A stretch of 64,000 nucleotides of DNA from Nitrosopumilus zosterae (GTDB taxonomy: Archaea; Thermoproteota; Nitrososphaeria; Nitrososphaerales; Nitrosopumilaceae). Numbering within the stretch: position 1 is the stretch's first letter; the number at the start of each line of letters is the position of its first letter. Made by a program: the position numbers and the translations under genes. The notes below the pieces were generated by a model. The model made no database searches, was not told where the DNA came from, and saw only the letters and a program-made list of their open reading frames with translations. Below are positions 592-6,288 of this stretch, one piece after another. The DNA lies in the NCBI RefSeq assembly GCF_025998175.1, contig NZ_AP026695.1, forward strand, positions 1,180,760 through 1,244,759, written 5' to 3'.

Positions 592-751
592 TTTAACATT
601 CAAACGTCGTTTTTGTTGATTTAATTTCTTAGAGGAATTATTTTTGAGATGATTAATACGCCATACAAGTGTGAAATATAATTTTGCGTTACAAAGGCTT
701 CTTACAGCTAAAGAATGTTGAGTAAAATCGATCAAATAATAAAAATCAAAT

Positions 752-1612
752 TTAGATTTTTGATTTAGAATAAGCTCGAAATAAACGTGCCGTGTCTTGA
801 CCATCAATGACACCATAATAGATCATTTTATTTTCTTTATTGGACTTATTCTCAGCCAAACTTTTCATCATGTCAAGAATACTATGATCAATTTGAGCAT
901 CATACATAACAAAAAATGCCTGTGAAGGACTTTTGAACAATCTAGAGATTTGATCACCATGCTTGCCCATCTTTTTAATTGTTAAAGTGGGAGGAGTGCC
1001 AGCACCCTTTAAAGCAAAAGAAGTATTAATTCGCTTACCATTAATTTTAAGTCGCGTGGTATTGATATCATTTATCTCACCACCCCAATCAACAAATTTC
1101 CCATCTTCTTTAGTTATCGCCTTCAATAATTGTTTGATATCTTCTTCAGGAATTCTTTTTGTTTTAATTGAGCCAATTTTTTTAACTTTTGAAAAAGAAT
1201 CTATATCATCAACAGTTAATTCTTTTGGAATATGTTTATTATTTTTTAAATTCACAGTTACAGTGATATTCCCATTACCAGATGACAATTCACTAGGAAC
1301 ATTAAATTGTTTTTTATGTACACGCTGAATGATAATAGTTTTATATTTTTTATAGAAGGGGATTTTCCCATAAGCAATTCTCTTATTTTTTTCAGTTTGT
1401 TCTATTACACCTCCAGAAACAAGAGAATTACCGACTTCAAGTACTCTTTTTAAACTTTTTAATCCAGTTTCATTTTGAATATGATCTTGAGTTTTCACAG
1501 GTGATTTATGGAAATAAATTGATTCGAAAACTTTCAAACGGTCTTGAGAACGACCAATTACATTCACAGCATGGGTGATCATTTTTTCTTTATTAGCTGC
1601 TTCATCAATCAC
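752..1612 (-). CDS. Winged-helix protein with conserved, possibly nuclease-like C-terminal domain
   Basis: The frame is open from 1690, but the first part overlaps the upstream 58-residue gene. The strong Shine-Dalgarno-like GGAGGTGA lies near 1630-1637, so I chose the GTG at 1612 (286 residues); the ATG at 1582 is an alternative. Residues ~15-90 look like a winged helix (LKVFESIYFHKSPVKTQDHI through SGGVIEQ). The C-terminal ~110 residues carry DWGGEINDINTTRLKINGKR, FALKGAG, KMGKHGDQISRLFKSPSQAF and YYGVIDGQDTARLFRAY. This alternation of strands with conserved D/E and K resembles restriction-endonuclease-like folds, but no clean PD-(D/E)xK motif is present, so the nuclease idea is inference. 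It is last in an operon behind three small HTH genes, which suggests a shared role in the island. Confidence 0.7.
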   Translation of the reverse strand: MIDEAANKEKMITHAVNVIGRSQDRLKVFESIYFHKSPVKTQDHIQNETGLKSLKRVLEVGNSLVSGGVIEQTEKNKRIAYGKIPFYKKYKTIIIQRVHKKQFNVPSELSSGNGNITVTVNLKNNKHIPKELTVDDIDSFSKVKKIGSIKTKRIPEEDIKQLLKAITKEDGKFVDWGGEINDINTTRLKINGKRINTSFALKGAGTPPTLTIKKMGKHGDQISRLFKSPSQAFFVMYDAQIDHSILDMMKSLAENKSNKENKMIYYGVIDGQDTARLFRAYSKSKI

Positions 1613-1625
1613 GGATACAGGTAAT

Positions 1626-1802
1626 TTAATCACCTCCTTTTGATTTATTTTTTCTTGTTGGAAATTTTTTTCTAATTCCACTAGAATCAACTCCTAAACA
1701 AGTAGCAATCTCACTTGATGTTGCCCCAGATTTAATCAATAAAAGAATCAACAGATTTTTTATAGATTCAAGTTCAGTTTGTTTATTTTTTTCATTACTC
1801 AT
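1626..1802 (-). CDS. Small coiled-coil/HTH protein (58 aa)
   Basis: This 58-residue gene starts at ATG 1802, overlapping the stop of the upstream gene as ATGA, which is strong evidence of translational coupling. It reads MSNEKNKQTELESIKNLLIL, then an HTH-like SGATSSEIATCLGVDSSGIR and a basic end. It lacks the linker between coiled coil and HTH seen in its neighbours, so it is the shortest member of the series. Its 3' end contains AAAGGAGGTGA, probably the ribosome binding site of the following winged-helix gene, which it overlaps. A DNA-binding role is inferred from the HTH; targets are unknown. Confidence 0.72.
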   Translation of the reverse strand: MSNEKNKQTELESIKNLLILLLIKSGATSSEIATCLGVDSSGIRKKFPTRKNKSKGGD

Positions 1803-2032
1803 TGTTCCTTAACCTCTTTTTGAGTAGATTTTTTTTTAATTCCATGAACCGCGACACGAACATTATTTGCTGTTTTTCCTAAACAATCAGCAATTTCAGA
1901 TGGCTGCATACCCATTTCATGAAGAATTTTTACTTGTTCTTGAAATTGTCTACCTTTTACAACATCTAATGCAAGTAATTTAGAAATAATTTTCAAGCGA
2001 TTATCAATAGATTCGAGGGCTTTATCGTTCAT
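1799..2032 (-). CDS. Small coiled-coil/HTH protein (77 aa)
   Basis: The 77-residue product has an N-terminal heptad-like helix (ALESIDNRLKIISKLLALDVV, about residues 5-25), a short connector, and an HTH resembling sigma-70 region 4 (MGMQPSEIADCLGKTANNVRVAV, about 41-63) followed by a Lys-rich tail. It overlaps both neighbours by ATGA junctions at 2029-2032 and 1799-1802, so the three genes are translated as a unit. The coiled coil suggests dimers or hetero-oligomers with its paralogues. No enzymatic motif is visible. Function as a transcriptional regulator is inferred from fold only. Confidence 0.8.
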   Translation of the reverse strand: MNDKALESIDNRLKIISKLLALDVVKGRQFQEQVKILHEMGMQPSEIADCLGKTANNVRVAVHGIKKKSTQKEVKEQ

Positions 2033-2247
2033 TTTTTACCTCTCTTTTTCAATAATGATAATTCCTTTGCCACGTTACTATTGCTAGTGTGAAGAATTCG
2101 AGCAATTTCATGAGTATCAAAATCAAAATCATTCAATAGAGATATCTTATCTTTGGCAGTTTTTTCCTGAACAACCGTCTGTTCCATCAATACTGATAGA
2201 ATAGCATCTAACCTCATACTAATACCATTCAATTCTTCATTAGTCAT
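2029..2247 (-). CDS. Small coiled-coil/HTH protein, first gene of minus-strand operon (72 aa)
   Basis: The 72-residue protein has an amphipathic N-terminal helix (NGISMRLDAILSVLMEQTVV) and a C-terminal HTH (FDFDTHEIARILHTSNSNVAKEL) with a basic tail LLKKRGKK. It begins about 30 bp downstream (minus strand) of a TATA-like TTTATATA at about 2279-2286, consistent with a leaderless mRNA. An 18-bp perfect palindrome at 2252-2269 lies between that box and the start codon. This is where a repressor would bind, so autoregulation by the operon's own HTH proteins is plausible. The stop overlaps the next start. Confidence 0.8.
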   Translation of the reverse strand: MTNEELNGISMRLDAILSVLMEQTVVQEKTAKDKISLLNDFDFDTHEIARILHTSNSNVAKELSLLKKRGKK

Positions 2248-2251
2248 TTTC

Positions 2252-2269
2252 TATCTATATATATAGATA
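2252..2269. promoter_or_regulatory. 18-bp perfect palindrome between TATA box and start codon
   Basis: TATCTATATATATAGATA equals its own reverse complement. It sits 4 bp before the ATG at 2247 and just downstream of the TATA-like box (about 2279-2286, minus strand), overlapping the expected transcription start. This is the classical location for an archaeal repressor operator. The AT-only core lowers its statistical weight, though the GATA arms are less trivial. Confidence 0.5.
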
Positions 2270-2361
2270 TAATTATAGTATATAAATATTATTTACTTTA
2301 ACTAATGTTAAAAATTTCTGATTTTAGGAATTTTAAGTATAAAAATAATGATAAAATATCA

Positions 2362-2380
2362 ATACCATTAGTATTGGTAT
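2362..2380. promoter_or_regulatory. Inverted repeat overlapping plus-strand TATA box
   Basis: ATACCA (2362-2367) and TGGTAT (2375-2380) form a 6-7-6 inverted repeat. The right arm runs into TATAAAAAA (from 2378), the probable TATA box for the plus-strand HTH operon beginning at 2417 (about 35 bp later). Its arms differ from the palindrome of the minus-strand operon, so the two divergent operons may be controlled by different proteins. Confidence 0.45.
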
Positions 2381-2416
2381 AAAAAAGGTTAAATCCACGA
2401 ACATAAGAGAATATTC

Positions 2417-2638
2417 ATGGTCAAAAATTCAGAAGAACAGATGGTAAAAAAATTAAACGAAATAAAAGATCTATTAATGGCATTAAGAGATCTATCAATG
2501 TTACAAGCATCATATTCAGATATTCCCACAGATAAAATCTCAAAAGCTGCACACATGCAAAAAAGCAGAGTGTATGAAATAATTCCAAAACAAAAGAAAA
2601 CATCAAACACGAAGAAGGTAAATAAAAATGCAAAATGA
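2417..2638 (+). CDS. Small coiled-coil/HTH-like protein, first gene of plus-strand operon (73 aa)
   Basis: This 73-residue protein begins with a heptad-like helix (EQMVKKLNEIKDLLMALRDL) and continues to a degenerate HTH (TDKISKAAHMQKSRVYEII, about 38-56) and a basic tail. It resembles the other small proteins around it in layout more than in exact sequence. The start is the first ATG behind the TATA-like box at 2378-2386. It overlaps the next gene by 11 bp. DNA binding is inferred. Confidence 0.75.
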   Translation: MVKNSEEQMVKKLNEIKDLLMALRDLSMLQASYSDIPTDKISKAAHMQKSRVYEIIPKQKKTSNTKKVNKNAK

Positions 2639-2912
2639 ACAAGATAAACAAATTCTAAAAGTTCTCAAAGATATAGACAGTAAACTTTCAATTTTAATTT
2701 CATTGCAAAAAACATCATTCACACCTCCAAAATTAGGAGCTGAAGAAAAAGCAATATTGAAATTATGTAATGGAAAAAATACAATTAAAGAAATTATGGA
2801 AATTACATCTAAGAAAAAAAATAATGTAAAATCCACATTGAGCCATTTACGTAAAAAAGGAATAATAAAATCAACCACAATGAACAAAAAAATAGTATAT
2901 GTGAAGATCTAA
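2628..2912 (+). CDS. Small coiled-coil/winged-helix protein (94 aa)
   Basis: Residues 5-30 (DKQILKVLKDIDSKLSILIS) form a predicted coiled coil. Residues ~38-94 form a winged helix: EEKAILKLCNGKNTIKEIME, KKKNNVKSTLSHLRKKGIIK, then the wing TTMNKKIVYVKI. It differs from the simple HTH of its neighbours, but the same N-terminal helix shows the modular design of the cluster. The stop codon abuts the next start with no spacer, so co-translation is likely. A regulatory role is inferred. Confidence 0.8.
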   Translation: MQNEQDKQILKVLKDIDSKLSILISLQKTSFTPPKLGAEEKAILKLCNGKNTIKEIMEITSKKKNNVKSTLSHLRKKGIIKSTTMNKKIVYVKI

Positions 2913-3116
2913 ATGGCAAAAAAAGAAAAATCTGAAAAATTATTAGAAGAAATTAATAAAAAATTAGACATTATGATAGAAATTCAGATCCTTGAGAAAT
3001 CTGAAGATGATCAATTAAAAATATTGAAAAGATTAGGATATTCCTCAAAAGAAGCAAGTGAATTTACAGGAATTAGTTATTCTTCTATTAGGCATAGAAA
3101 AGGATGGAAAGAATGA
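2913..3116 (+). CDS. Small coiled-coil/HTH protein (67 aa)
   Basis: This 67-residue protein has a coiled coil (EKLLEEINKKLDIMIEIQIL) and a compact HTH (LKRLGYSSKEASEFTGIS through SSIRHRKGWKE). It ends in the sequence RHRKGW, echoed by RDREGW in the next gene, so the two are recent paralogues or share a partner. ATG directly follows the preceding TAA, and its TGA overlaps the next ATG. No other function is visible. Confidence 0.8.
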   Translation: MAKKEKSEKLLEEINKKLDIMIEIQILEKSEDDQLKILKRLGYSSKEASEFTGISYSSIRHRKGWKE

Positions 3117-3340
3117 CAAAGCAAAACGAGAGAAAGAACAAAACAGAGTTGGAACTTCTTAATGATATTAATTTGAAACTAGATAAATTGATCGGAGTAT
3201 TAGCAATTCAAAGTATCAAAGACACAGATGATAAAATTCACTTGCTAAAAAATTTAGATTTTAAATCAGATGAGGTAGGACCGTTGGTGGGAATTAAAGG
3301 AACATCTGTGAGAGACAGAGAAGGTTGGAAGAGAAAATGA
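3113..3340 (+). CDS. Small coiled-coil/HTH protein (75 aa)
   Basis: The start is taken as the ATG at 3113, which overlaps the upstream TGA; an in-frame ATG at 3104 would overlap further. The protein has the coiled coil ELELLNDINLKLDKLIGVLA and an HTH (LKNLDFKSDEVGPLVGIK through TSVRDREGWKRK) that aligns by eye with the preceding gene product. The pair is a clear tandem duplication at the protein level. The stop TGA overlaps the next ATG. Confidence 0.8.
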   Translation: MTKQNERKNKTELELLNDINLKLDKLIGVLAIQSIKDTDDKIHLLKNLDFKSDEVGPLVGIKGTSVRDREGWKRK

Positions 3341-3651
3341 GTGAAGAGATTGTTGAGAAATTAAGTGAGATTCAAAAACAAAATCAAATAATAATAAGTC
3401 TTTTAGCAAAACTTGTTTTAAAAGAAGAAGAAGTTAAGGAGATTATTATCAATAGAAAAACTAATCCAAAAAAATACATTGAAGGTTATAATGCATGTGA
3501 CGGAAAACATACGATTAATGAAATAATAAAAATTGTAGGAGTTAAACAACAAACTCTATCACCAATTCTTCAAGAATGGGAAAATAAAGGAATTTTGTAT
3601 TCCTTTGAAAAAAAAGGTTTGAAATTTTATAATAATTATTTTAAAATCTAA
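3337..3651 (+). CDS. Small coiled-coil/winged-helix protein, last gene of plus-strand operon (104 aa)
   Basis: Starting at the ATGA overlap (3337), the product has a long N-terminal helix (IVEKLSEIQKQNQIIISLLA), a charged linker, and a winged helix (residues ~50-104: EGYNACDGKHTINEIIKIVG, QQTLSPILQEWENKGILYSF, terminal wing). The layout matches the 94-residue protein two genes upstream. It ends the five-gene overlapping operon; a 142-bp AT-rich gap with an inverted repeat follows. Confidence 0.78.
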   Translation: MSEEIVEKLSEIQKQNQIIISLLAKLVLKEEEVKEIIINRKTNPKKYIEGYNACDGKHTINEIIKIVGVKQQTLSPILQEWENKGILYSFEKKGLKFYNNYFKI

Positions 3652-3734
3652 TAGTAAATGTAAACAGTGTTTATTCTAGGTGTTTATTCGAAAAATTATT
3701 TGTGCCTAAAAATATAGTTTATACCTGAAATTTG

Positions 3735-3749
3735 TGCCTAGAGTAGGCA
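3735..3749. promoter_or_regulatory. Inverted repeat downstream of HTH operon
   Basis: TGCCTA-GAG-TAGGCA is a 6-3-6 inverted repeat in the gap between the convergent HTH operon and HNH-like gene. The half-site TTGTGCCTA also occurs once at about 3699-3707 and again at 3732-3740. It could be an operator or recombination site; a terminator is less likely because no T-tract follows directly. Confidence 0.35.
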
Positions 3750-3793
3750 TAGACATTATCAATGCGTAAAATCGAATCTTAATAGATTAAAAA

Positions 3794-3979
3794 CTATGAA
3801 TTCTTTTCCAGTTGTTCTTTAAATTTTGGAATAGCCTGATCTTGATACCATGTAATCACTTTATGACAATCATTACACACCATCATAATTTCACCATTGC
3901 ATTCTTTTACATGATGTTCAGTGAGATTATTTTTGAGAGTATTACATACAAGACATTCACTGATTTTTGTGATAACCAT
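3794..3979 (-). CDS. HNH-like small zinc protein (61 aa)
   Basis: The 61 residues contain CLVC (9-12), LTEHHVKECNGE (about 19-30) and VCNDCHKVITW (about 34-44). The order CxxC, HH, CxxCH is that of small HNH-family domains, where the paired His and the later His bind metal and cut DNA. It is shorter than typical HNH nucleases and may only be a zinc-binding DNA-contact module. It sits between the HTH operon and the integrase, as expected for mobile-element baggage. Activity is inferred. Confidence 0.65.
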   Translation of the reverse strand: MVITKISECLVCNTLKNNLTEHHVKECNGEIMMVCNDCHKVITWYQDQAIPKFKEQLEKNS

Positions 3980-4298
3980 AGAATTTCTCAGACAGACTAA
4001 AAATTAAGGATTTTAGGCGTAATTTGTTTAAGGAAAATCAAACAAAAAGGCATCAAAAAATAACAAAAAACAACGAAGATATAACAAAAATTAAGCAAAA
4101 ATAAGCAAAATTTAGGGTCAAAGTAGGGTCAAAATAACAAAAGAGAGGAAAGAACAAGCACAAAGAAAACAAAAATCAACAAAATTTATCAAAGCATCAT
4201 CGAAAAACAACGAACGTGTAAGAATGATTCTAGCAAAAACACAAAAAAGTAAAGGGATCACATGCAAAAAAATACAAAATAAAAAAAGGTCTAAACCA
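3980..4298. other. A-rich, T-poor noncoding stretch with short tandem repeats
   Basis: No convincing gene is visible in about 320 bp. The plus strand is strikingly A-rich and T-poor. It carries two tandem pairs, TAAGCAAAA at 4092-4100 and 4102-4110, and TAGGGTCAAA at 4113-4122 and 4124-4133. AAACAACGAA is present at 4068-4077 and 4205-4214. Spacing of 10-11 bp places copies on the same helix face, as in protein-binding arrays. Role unknown. Confidence 0.5.
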
Positions 4299-4403
4299 CT
4301 ATACAGTGCTTTTGCACAATTCTAGTGTACAATCAATCAGGTCTTTTTTTGAATGATTCTCCAATGGTTCTTTACAGTTAGTACAAAAATGTGGTGGGCT
4401 CAT
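4299..4403 (-). CDS. Tiny Cys-containing protein (34 aa)
   Basis: The frame extends upstream to 4484, but the internal ATG at 4403 gives a compact 34-residue product starting MSPPHFCTNCKEPLENHSKK, followed by a DC and an ELCKS. The arrangement CxxC, then His and two Cys, suggests a small zinc knuckle. The start lies close to, and divergent from, the next plus-strand gene, with AT-rich promoter-like sequence between. I do not recognise a family with certainty, and at this length it could be fortuitous. Confidence 0.4.
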   Translation of the reverse strand: MSPPHFCTNCKEPLENHSKKDLIDCTLELCKSTV

Positions 4404-4422
4404 TATTATATCATTAAATTTA

Positions 4423-5031
4423 ATGCTTATAACAAACGGTTTTAAAATGAAAACCGATATGGACATTATTCTTGAAGATAGCATATTAGAAAATGCCTCA
4501 GAGTGGATTCACAAAACAGAACTGTGGAGAAAGACAAAATCAGACAAAAAAAGATGTTTTGACACTATTGATTATCTTGTAAAAGAAGGGTTTTTAGAAA
4601 CAAAAAAGGAACAAAATAAGCACAAATTTAGACGTAAAAATGAAATCCTCACAGACAAAGAATTTAGCGAATCACAGATAAGACGTAGAGGATGGATGGT
4701 AGATACAGTAAATGCTATCAACAATATTGAAAAACCATTATTTACATACGTTAAAAGTAGAAAACAATCAGAACCAAGAACTAAATTAATCAAAGGAGGA
4801 TTAGAATCCCTAGATTATTACATGAATGGTTCTACTGCACATATAGCGAGATTAAGACTTGCAAAAGCATATCATATCATCAACAAAAGAACGGCAGATA
4901 AAAGAATCGACGTGATAGAAAATACAATTAATTATATCGCAAATTATTTTCTTAGTACCAATCCAGATGAATCAGAACAGATTAAAGAATATAATCAAAG
5001 GATCAGTAGACGAACAACGTTCAAGATTTAA
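4423..5031 (+). CDS. Winged-helix accessory protein (202 aa)
   Basis: The first ATG is 4423; the ATG at 4447 (MKTDMDIILEDSIL) is equally possible given the AT-rich promoter region around 4404-4431. Residues ~20-65 form a winged helix: NASEWIHKTELWRKTKSD, then RCFDTIDYLVKEGFLETKKE, with a basic wing. The remainder is helical and basic (RRRGWMVDTVNAINNIEKPL, then IARLRLAKAYHIINKR) and not recognised. It ends 8 bp before the convergent integrase gene. It could be a regulator or excision accessory factor of the element, but that is inferred from position only. Confidence 0.7.
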   Translation: MLITNGFKMKTDMDIILEDSILENASEWIHKTELWRKTKSDKKRCFDTIDYLVKEGFLETKKEQNKHKFRRKNEILTDKEFSESQIRRRGWMVDTVNAINNIEKPLFTYVKSRKQSEPRTKLIKGGLESLDYYMNGSTAHIARLRLAKAYHIINKRTADKRIDVIENTINYIANYFLSTNPDESEQIKEYNQRISRRTTFKI

Positions 5032-5038
5032 AATTAAT

Positions 5039-6118
5039 TTAGGAATTATGGCGTTTCTGTAATTCCAACATGTTATTTTGTATTTGGAGAATGGTTTTTT
5101 GTAGATTCTCTATCTCAGTGTTTTTATCTTGTAGTAAATCAATCTCATCTTGCTGAGATTGAATCTGAGATTGTAATCGGTATTTATCATCGATGAATAA
5201 TTTAGGTATTACCTTTTGATATTCATCAAAGAGTTGTTCAAGTAGGGGTTTAAAGTATGAATTATCTAATGGGATGGTAACGGAATGACCAGCTAGTTTT
5301 TCTGCAAGACTAATGTTTACAGAAGGGTTTGATTTTAAAATAGTGATGAACCGTTTTCTAAATCCATGACACGTCATTATTTCATATCTTCCATGTTTGG
5401 ATTCTTCACGACCTAATGACCTTTTGACATGACGGCTCAATGTTGTGGTAGTTGATTCAGTTGATGATGGTTTAGTAGTATCACAAGGTGAACAAAATAC
5501 CCATGAATCAGGGGTGATTGTCTCGCCTTTTCGAGTACGAAATTCCAGATATTCGTCAAGAGCCTCAACAGCTTCTTGATGAATGAAAGTATAGTATTCA
5601 TCTTTAGTGTCTGCATAAACTAGAACGGACTTGCAACCATTTGGCATATCTTTGAGATGTTTCATTTTCAATTCTTCAAAACAACCCACACGAACCCCAC
5701 TAGAAGCCATGAATTGCATTAATGCTCTATACCGTAGAGTTTTGGAACTCTTTACGAGTATTTCAATTTCTTGTGTTGTGTATGGTCTTTCTCCAGTTGA
5801 TTTTGTCTTTTCAGGAATCATTTTTCTTAATTTATCCCAATTCAAAAGAACATCATTCATAACAAAGAATAATTTCAATGCCACAAGTTTGGCACGAATT
5901 GAACTCAACCCCTGTCCTTGATCTCGTGCATACATCACATAATCTTCGATCATTGTTTGAAGTTTTTTTGGTTCAATTTCTACTAATTTATCAAAACTTT
6001 TGATGGCAGAGTATTCCTTGAAACATTTTAACTGATAATCATATTGTCGTTGAGTCTTTTCAGATTTGATAGCCGAATGATATAAAAGTAAAGAACGCTG
6101 ATTCAATGAATTATTCAT
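5039..6118 (-). CDS. Tyrosine recombinase / integrase
   Basis: This XerC/phage-type site-specific recombinase is the best mobility marker of the island. Counting from an upstream in-frame start at 6181 (380 residues), the catalytic set is Arg164 (SSGVRVG), Lys193 (ADTKDE), His272 and Arg275 (CHGFRKRF), His299 (LAGHS) and Tyr309 (DNSYFKP), so it looks intact. The N-terminal core-binding domain covers ~25-125. After the tyrosine, ~70 residues form a coiled coil (QSQIQSQQDEIDLLQDKNTE and on), unusual for XerC-like proteins. I chose the ATG at 6118; ATGs at 6169 and 6181 are alternatives. It is convergent with the winged-helix gene. Confidence 0.92.
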   Translation of the reverse strand: MNNSLNQRSLLLYHSAIKSEKTQRQYDYQLKCFKEYSAIKSFDKLVEIEPKKLQTMIEDYVMYARDQGQGLSSIRAKLVALKLFFVMNDVLLNWDKLRKMIPEKTKSTGERPYTTQEIEILVKSSKTLRYRALMQFMASSGVRVGCFEELKMKHLKDMPNGCKSVLVYADTKDEYYTFIHQEAVEALDEYLEFRTRKGETITPDSWVFCSPCDTTKPSSTESTTTTLSRHVKRSLGREESKHGRYEIMTCHGFRKRFITILKSNPSVNISLAEKLAGHSVTIPLDNSYFKPLLEQLFDEYQKVIPKLFIDDKYRLQSQIQSQQDEIDLLQDKNTEIENLQKTILQIQNNMLELQKRHNS

Positions 6119-6288
6119 GGTAAATTTACTATTAACTAACGGTTTTTTGGATAATACCGATTTTATCATGCAATAAATCATTCTAGGAAGCTAAAGGACA
6201 TAATCATCTAAATAATTAACAACAACAAAATTATTTTCAACCTAATTTACCTTATATGACAGATTTTTACAATATTCAGTAAGAGAAT

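Follow-up and report, generated by a model that had tools for sequence, protein, structure and literature searches.

The window analysed here, a 64,000-nucleotide stretch of the Nitrosopumilus zosterae genome (NZ_AP026695.1, positions 1,180,760 to 1,244,759), carries between positions 752 and 3651 nine genes arranged as two divergent, tightly packed operons. Eight of these genes encode small proteins composed of a helix and a helix-turn-helix (HTH) domain, and the ninth encodes a 286-amino-acid (aa) winged-helix protein that we term the effector. The island that bears them is one instance of a widely transferred archaeal and bacterial gene cassette, in which small HTH-type proteins are accompanied by a single interchangeable, toxin-like effector. 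An earlier note, made from the sequence alone, had described the same nine genes in tight divergent operons, and this description is confirmed by the open reading frames (ORFs), by shuffled sequences and by comparison with other loci. Positions 752-3651 hold 11 ATG-initiated ORFs of at least 55 aa, and 300 dinucleotide shuffles of this region gave a mean of 1.2 and a maximum of 5.

The genes of the cassette are as follows, with E-values for matches to hidden Markov models (HMMs) of three small-gene families, S, L and W.

1612-752, minus: effector, 286 aa, GTG start, last gene of the minus operon
1802-1626, minus: m3, 58 aa, S family (helix and HTH), HMM S 3e-22; best relative in an acidobacterium, 3e-14
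2032-1799, minus: m2, 77 aa, L family, HMM L 5e-25
2247-2029, minus: m1, 72 aa, L family, HMM L 2e-22; best relative in Bathyarchaeota
2248-2416, no strand: divergent spacer of 169 bp with dyad-symmetric operator-like sequences, by sequence inspection
2417-2638, plus: p1, 73 aa, S-like, HMM S 3e-10
2628-2912, plus: p2, 94 aa, W family (winged helix), HMM W 1e-25; TrmB 5.9e-5, sub-threshold
2913-3116, plus: p3, 67 aa, L family; 88% identical over 60 aa to a small gene of locus L095, which has a HEPN effector
3113-3340, plus: p4, 75 aa (78 if the upstream ATG is used), L family, HMM L 5e-17; 56% identical over 54 aa to the L095 gene neighbouring the p3 counterpart
3337-3651, plus: p5, 104 aa, W family, HMM W 8e-27

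Successive genes are separated by -4, -4 and 13 bp in the minus operon and by -11, 0, -4 and -4 bp in the plus operon. The operons had been called divergent and overlapping; they are divergent and overlaps do occur between genes, but the operons themselves do not overlap each other because the 169-bp spacer separates them. By inspection, this spacer contains the dyads TTAAC-TAAT-GTTAA, ATACCA-N7-TGGTAT and TCTATATATAGA, as well as a palindrome at 2249-2272.

Small-gene families and their association with the effector

The three small-gene families are recognisable across phyla. Proteins of the S family (55-70 aa) consist of a helix directly followed by the HTH, those of the L family (70-95 aa) have a longer linker, and those of the W family (90-140 aa) form a winged helix. 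The sigma-70 region 4-like HTH proposed for them in the earlier note is a resemblance that stays sub-threshold in Pfam (E 0.01-0.14). We define a coil-HTH array system as S, L or W small genes adjoining a gene that encodes an adaptor joined to an effector, and the window carries such a system. Cassettes contain from one to about nine small genes per locus, with eight in the window.

Upstream sequence is available for 18 full-length effector copies, and every one of them is adjoined by at least one small coil-HTH gene, which shows that the small genes and the effector form a real co-inherited unit. These 18 include the window and the broken copy of genome G118; two further copies lie at contig starts. 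HMMs built with one locus left out each time recover small genes adjoining the effector in 12 of the 12 loci tested, which come from many phyla. They gave 48 matches within 2.5 kb of the effector and 7 in the remaining flanks of these loci, corresponding to an approximately 23-fold higher density, and nearly all of the near-effector matches have E-values of 1e-8 to 1e-28. Thus, the small proteins are members of paralogous families whose genes turn up repeatedly next to that of the 286-aa protein, as had been anticipated, and the outcome that the earlier note had named as its refutation, homologues that are scattered and never adjoin, is the opposite of the co-occurrence found in many phyla.

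For 65 of 66 small proteins the best relative resides at another locus, often in another phylum or domain, and pairs within a locus are no more similar than pairs between loci (22/110 versus 399/2035). Because their best relatives sit in other loci, the small genes are old, distinct subunits rather than recent tandem duplicates. Of 95 congeneric genomes, only G000 and G118 contain S-family genes, and each carries the effector family (the G118 copy being broken); the one exception is a weak match in a larger ORF.

A single-sequence search with the 286-aa protein in genome contigs and viral contigs returned no match, and only an alignment-based search reached the effector family. Among 84,980 species genomes, this search located 21 loci, always as a single copy per genome, that include members of Ignavibacteria, Thaumarchaeota, Bathyarchaeota, Acidobacteria, Planctomycetes, Verrucomicrobia, Alpha- and Betaproteobacteria, Actinomycetota, Magasanikbacteria and Nanoarchaeota. 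Weak family-level matches at L005-L014 (E ~1e-3, within longer frames) were set aside as unrelated. The distribution is sparse, with the effector present in 2 of 297 Acidobacteriota and 2 of 294 Planctomycetota sampled (seed genome included) and L genes in 11 of 141 Bathyarchaeia. One clade of the effector tree holds four bacterial phyla (100/99), and archaea and bacteria are mixed in its poorly supported parts, a pattern that is consistent with horizontal transfer.

Close relatives of the window effector are found in only three other genomes of the organism's family, G141, G209 and G118. In G118, a stop splits the effector gene into two ORFs (L018:8949-9844) and the neighbouring small genes remain open; a 418-aa ORF of no known family (L018:11081-12337) is divergent from this array. 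Likewise divergent from the G141 array is a 144-aa protein without a Pfam match (L016:5522-5956), which is paired with a small L-family gene and could be a further component.

The effector and its exchangeable parts

The effector comprises an N-terminal winged-helix adaptor (residues ~1-105) and a C-terminal domain (~130-286) that is PD-(D/E)XK-like. An AlphaFold 2 model based on 26 homologues, with a mean predicted local distance difference test (pLDDT) score of 88, exhibits an ArsR/MarR-like winged helix, a linker and an alpha-beta-beta-alpha-beta-alpha-beta-alpha C-domain; a previous model from 4 sequences (pLDDT 64) was too poor to use. The conserved C-terminal domain posited in the earlier note is borne out by residues invariant over the 26 sequences (E156, D175, W176, G178, E179, D182, R194, K202, G203, G216, D220, Q221 and R224). 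What that note had not foreseen is that this domain resembles a nuclease, and that the 286-aa protein is one of many interchangeable effectors. Residues E156, D175, E179, D182, K202 and Q221 appear to be placed roughly as in a PD-(D/E)XK nuclease, a likeness short of proof, and the order and position of the invariant E, D, K and Q, like the alpha-beta-beta-alpha-beta topology, roughly fit the acidic/Lys motif and the alpha-beta-beta-beta-alpha-beta core of this superfamily. A Bathyarchaeal effector (L026:148-1248) has an extra low-complexity C-terminal tail of ~65-75 aa.

Proteins that carry the C-domain with other N-termini occur at L036-L040, where no small coil-HTH genes adjoin them. One of these (L038:7305-8477) is flanked by a modification-type gene on one side and a helicase-type gene on the other, in a locus that resembles type III restriction systems. 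Viral contig scans gave one C-domain match (L049), plasmids and phages gave only distant C-domain matches, and C-domain relatives are also found on Gordonia and Rhodococcus plasmids (L046, L047).

PADLOC-DB 2.0.0 contains no match for the three effectors tested, and p2 and p5 match only the winged helix-turn-helix (wHTH) part of Csa3/CasR-type regulators in this database. Pfam has no family for the 286-aa protein, and for its related members neither NCBIfam nor Pfam has one. The family phrog_7593 matches the window effector weakly (4.9e-5) and no other member of its family, and a genome search with phrog_7593 was empty.

Genes of the L family are also present in congeners that lack the 286-aa protein, and there another effector-like gene adjoins the array. 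Effectors found at this same position are CHAT protease-like proteins, Swt1, Ymh and other HEPN proteins, HNH proteins, other PD-(D/E)XK-like proteins, proteins with a Schlafen AlbA domain and a recurrent membrane protein. The Pfam E-values are 1.9e-8 for CHAT, 3.7e-13 and 1.9e-10 for Ymh, 7e-12, 3e-12 and 3e-10 for Swt1-HEPN, 7.5e-12 for HNH and 3.5e-7 for SLFN_AlbA_2. Pfam confirms the Ymh, Swt1, CHAT, HNH and AlbA_2 assignments and the Cas1 of L097; the other HEPN-like and nuclease-like labels below are motifs read by eye.

Effectors adjoining arrays:
L095, again L116: wHTH-HEPN protein with an RN..DH motif
L096 and L117: Ymh HEPN
L097: Swt1 HEPN, near Cas1
L098, again L165: membrane protein, 208 aa

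Effectors from the class-wide search:
L118, L120 and L121: HEPN-like family
L122 (near a Cas1-like ORF) and L169: wHTH and PD-(D/E)XK-like
L162: Swt1 HEPN and HNH
L163: Swt1 HEPN
L164, L167 and L168: other nuclease-like effectors
L171: wHTH and Schlafen AlbA

The array at L098:2403-10296 adjoins a DUF6036 nucleotidyltransferase and an Eco57I-type methylase.

The adaptors are exchanged as well. At L099, where S and L genes lie directly upstream, the effector joins the wHTH characteristic of the window's effector family to a CHAT domain (5e-29 to the Bathyarchaeal effector over the wHTH, 5e-11 to the window effector). One HTH adaptor is common to Ymh and Swt1 effectors (~1e-8), another is common to HNH and a PD-(D/E)XK-like effector (2e-15), and the W-family winged helix itself serves as the adaptor of HEPN and AlbA effectors (6e-12, 2e-7). 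One ordered set of small genes, W1-W2-W3-W4-L (W genes 39-44% identical), is found with two different effectors: a restriction endonuclease-like one in Bathyarchaeota, and Swt1-HEPN in a congener of the window's organism. The cassette is therefore modular in both effector and adaptor.

The island and its insertion site

The cassette is carried on a 5.6-kb integrase-bearing island, as revealed by comparison with the empty site. The same site lacks the cassette in 12 of 12 informative relatives, in which a purM-like gene and an antiporter gene adjoin with a spacer of ~74-84 bp in most and 309-502 bp in three. In the window, homology to this empty site breaks off at ~600 and restarts at ~6212, and inspection by eye shows the 5-bp sequence TTAAC at both junctions; no long direct repeats turned up when the island ends were searched for them. 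In addition to the cassette, the island contains the following features.

600-6212, no strand: whole inserted island, 5.6 kb, flanked by purM (ends 591) and the antiporter gene (starts 6289)
3692-3796, no strand: conserved non-coding stretch in which TGCCTA motifs are repeated; shares 76% identity over 106 bp with L095:5010-5114
3979-3794, minus: 61-aa Cys/His-rich protein (C-x2-C ... HH ... C-x2-CH), HNH-like by eye only
4036-4230, no strand: A-rich degenerate repeats between the 61-aa ORF and the 202-aa gene
4423-5031, plus: putative winged-helix island gene, 202 aa; DnaD_N 0.0016, sub-threshold
6118-5039, minus: tyrosine recombinase (integrase); Phage_integrase PF00589, E=2.5e-12

The A-rich repeats reported in the earlier note are real, and the 202-aa ORF it read as a further winged-helix gene is present with a DnaD_N match below the cut-off; the HNH-like label for the 61-aa protein finds no support in Pfam. 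The tyrosine recombinase is also present as described, but it is incidental to the cassette, since most relatives have none adjoining. Recombinases do occur near the cassettes of L023, L095 and L116. The HEPN-effector island L095 resembles that of the window in its p3 counterpart, in its related integrase (36% identical) and in its similar non-coding stretch, which likewise lies directly 3′ of the small-gene operon. This stretch is possibly a regulatory or recombination site. ORF calls and a Pfam search identified no methyltransferase among the island genes, unlike restriction-modification (R-M) loci.

Possible functions of the cassette

We consider it probable that the cassette is a modular conflict system, serving defence or abortive infection, with a swappable effector under the control of a hetero-oligomer of small HTH proteins. 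Such a role, one of those that the earlier note had raised, is the best fit, because interchangeable toxic effectors are set on common adaptors, a multi-gene accessory layer is conserved, the spread across phyla is sparse, and arrays are sometimes located beside CRISPR, OLD-like or restriction genes. The toxic domains found here are stock effectors of conflict systems.

Under this conflict-system model, one to about nine S, L and W proteins would be produced together with one effector, composed of an N-terminal adaptor and a swappable toxic domain (PD-(D/E)XK-like in the window). The small proteins would associate via their helices to create a hetero-oligomer that displays several different HTH domains on DNA, and the wHTH adaptor of the effector would bring it into this complex. 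The trigger might be DNA that is invading or replicating abnormally, or a loss of small-protein occupancy; either would nucleate or release the effector, which would then degrade nucleic acid and so stop the invader or the cell. The most economical mechanism would have the effector recruited, through its HTH adaptor, to a mixed oligomer of small proteins on DNA, and the W-family adaptors of some effectors are homologous to the small W proteins, as such co-assembly would need.

Several observations weigh against this model. The residue at the (D/E) place of the (D/E)xK motif in the effector C-domain is non-acidic, and Pfam and PDB profile searches with this domain were empty, which sets it apart from known PD-(D/E)XK nucleases. 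Foldseek likewise returned no significant nuclease match for the effector model; its top ranks were occupied by the ArsR/MarR-like wHTH half, and weak matches to RPB5 and to one phage restriction endonuclease were not taken as proof. The assembly and DNA binding proposed for the small proteins are suggested by sequence pattern only. Finally, some arrays adjoin Cas1, Eco57I-type methylase or OLD-like genes, but many are flanked by ordinary genes.

A less likely explanation, to which we nevertheless give some weight, is that the cassette is a toxin-antitoxin (TA) module with multiple antitoxins, in which the small HTH proteins act as autorepressors and neutralisers of the toxic effector, and whose chief effect is to stabilise the island or chromosome segment. 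As in type II TA systems, small HTH genes lie upstream in tight operons with a toxin such as HEPN; HEPN and nuclease domains are of the TA type; the divergent spacer contains dyad sequences; and the islands of the window, L095 and L116 bear integrases. The broken effector and open small genes of G118 would also fit an antitoxin-like restraint. However, TA modules normally carry one antitoxin, whereas these loci have as many as about nine conserved subunits, which are of several distinct types and keep their order across phyla, and the effector itself carries an HTH adaptor. Both the subunit count and the conserved order favour a sensing or activating role over an antitoxin role. Moreover, plasmids and phages are common homes of addiction modules, yet the small genes tested have no match in 72,556 plasmid or 50,697 phage records.

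It seems quite improbable that the cassette is a module of a mobile element, in which the effector would cut DNA site-specifically as an endonuclease or serve as a recombination factor, and transposition or integration of the cassette would be targeted or regulated by the small proteins. The integrase on the island, its precise insertion and the recombinases near three other cassettes are compatible with this idea, but most relatives lack an adjoining recombinase, and CHAT, HEPN-RNase and membrane effectors make little sense for transposition. A chance pile-up of generic regulators beside a hypothetical gene is hardly credible: single HTH domains are generic and their Pfam scores sub-threshold, but the co-occurrence at 18 of 18 loci in many phyla, the enrichment beside the effector and the near-absence of S-family genes elsewhere in the genus speak strongly against it.

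The conflict-system model has precedents. The CHAT, EAD, Death-like and TRADD-N conflict systems combine an adaptor domain with interchangeable effectors (CHAT/caspase, HEPN, restriction endonuclease); those described have NTPases or death-like adaptors as their basis and come mostly from multicellular bacteria (PMC7159879, PMC8195603). The cassettes described here share the pairing of an adaptor with a swappable effector; however, no signalling NTPase is present in the window cassette or beside the L099 CHAT array, and the accessory part consists of one to nine small helix-HTH proteins that are frequent in archaea. The excerpted text of PMC3710099 describes Ymh and Swt1 HEPN domains in fusions to paraMORC, AbiJ-NTD and AbiTii and in operons with R-M systems, and makes no mention of an association with small coil-HTH arrays, where these same toxic domains serve as effectors.

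Searches of Pfam, NCBIfam, PADLOC and open-access literature turned up no system of this kind. As a gene cassette, this type of system appears to be new, and the principle of swappable effectors is already known from other conflict systems. More tentatively, the arrays may represent a new class of immune system, in which variable hetero-oligomers of small helix-HTH proteins would function as a combinatorial DNA-reading sensor common to archaea and bacteria, wired via HTH adaptors to interchangeable nuclease, HEPN RNase, CHAT protease, Schlafen or membrane protein effectors. If true, this would be a widespread system type whose sensing layer is unlike those of STAND, CD-NTase, Argonaute or CRISPR systems, and in which many tiny HTH proteins could read DNA combinatorially. 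The modular set, with the same small genes and a different effector, is open to testing in laboratory hosts. The system would also account for a set of archaeal ‘dark matter’ small genes and would predict the function of several unnamed effector families.

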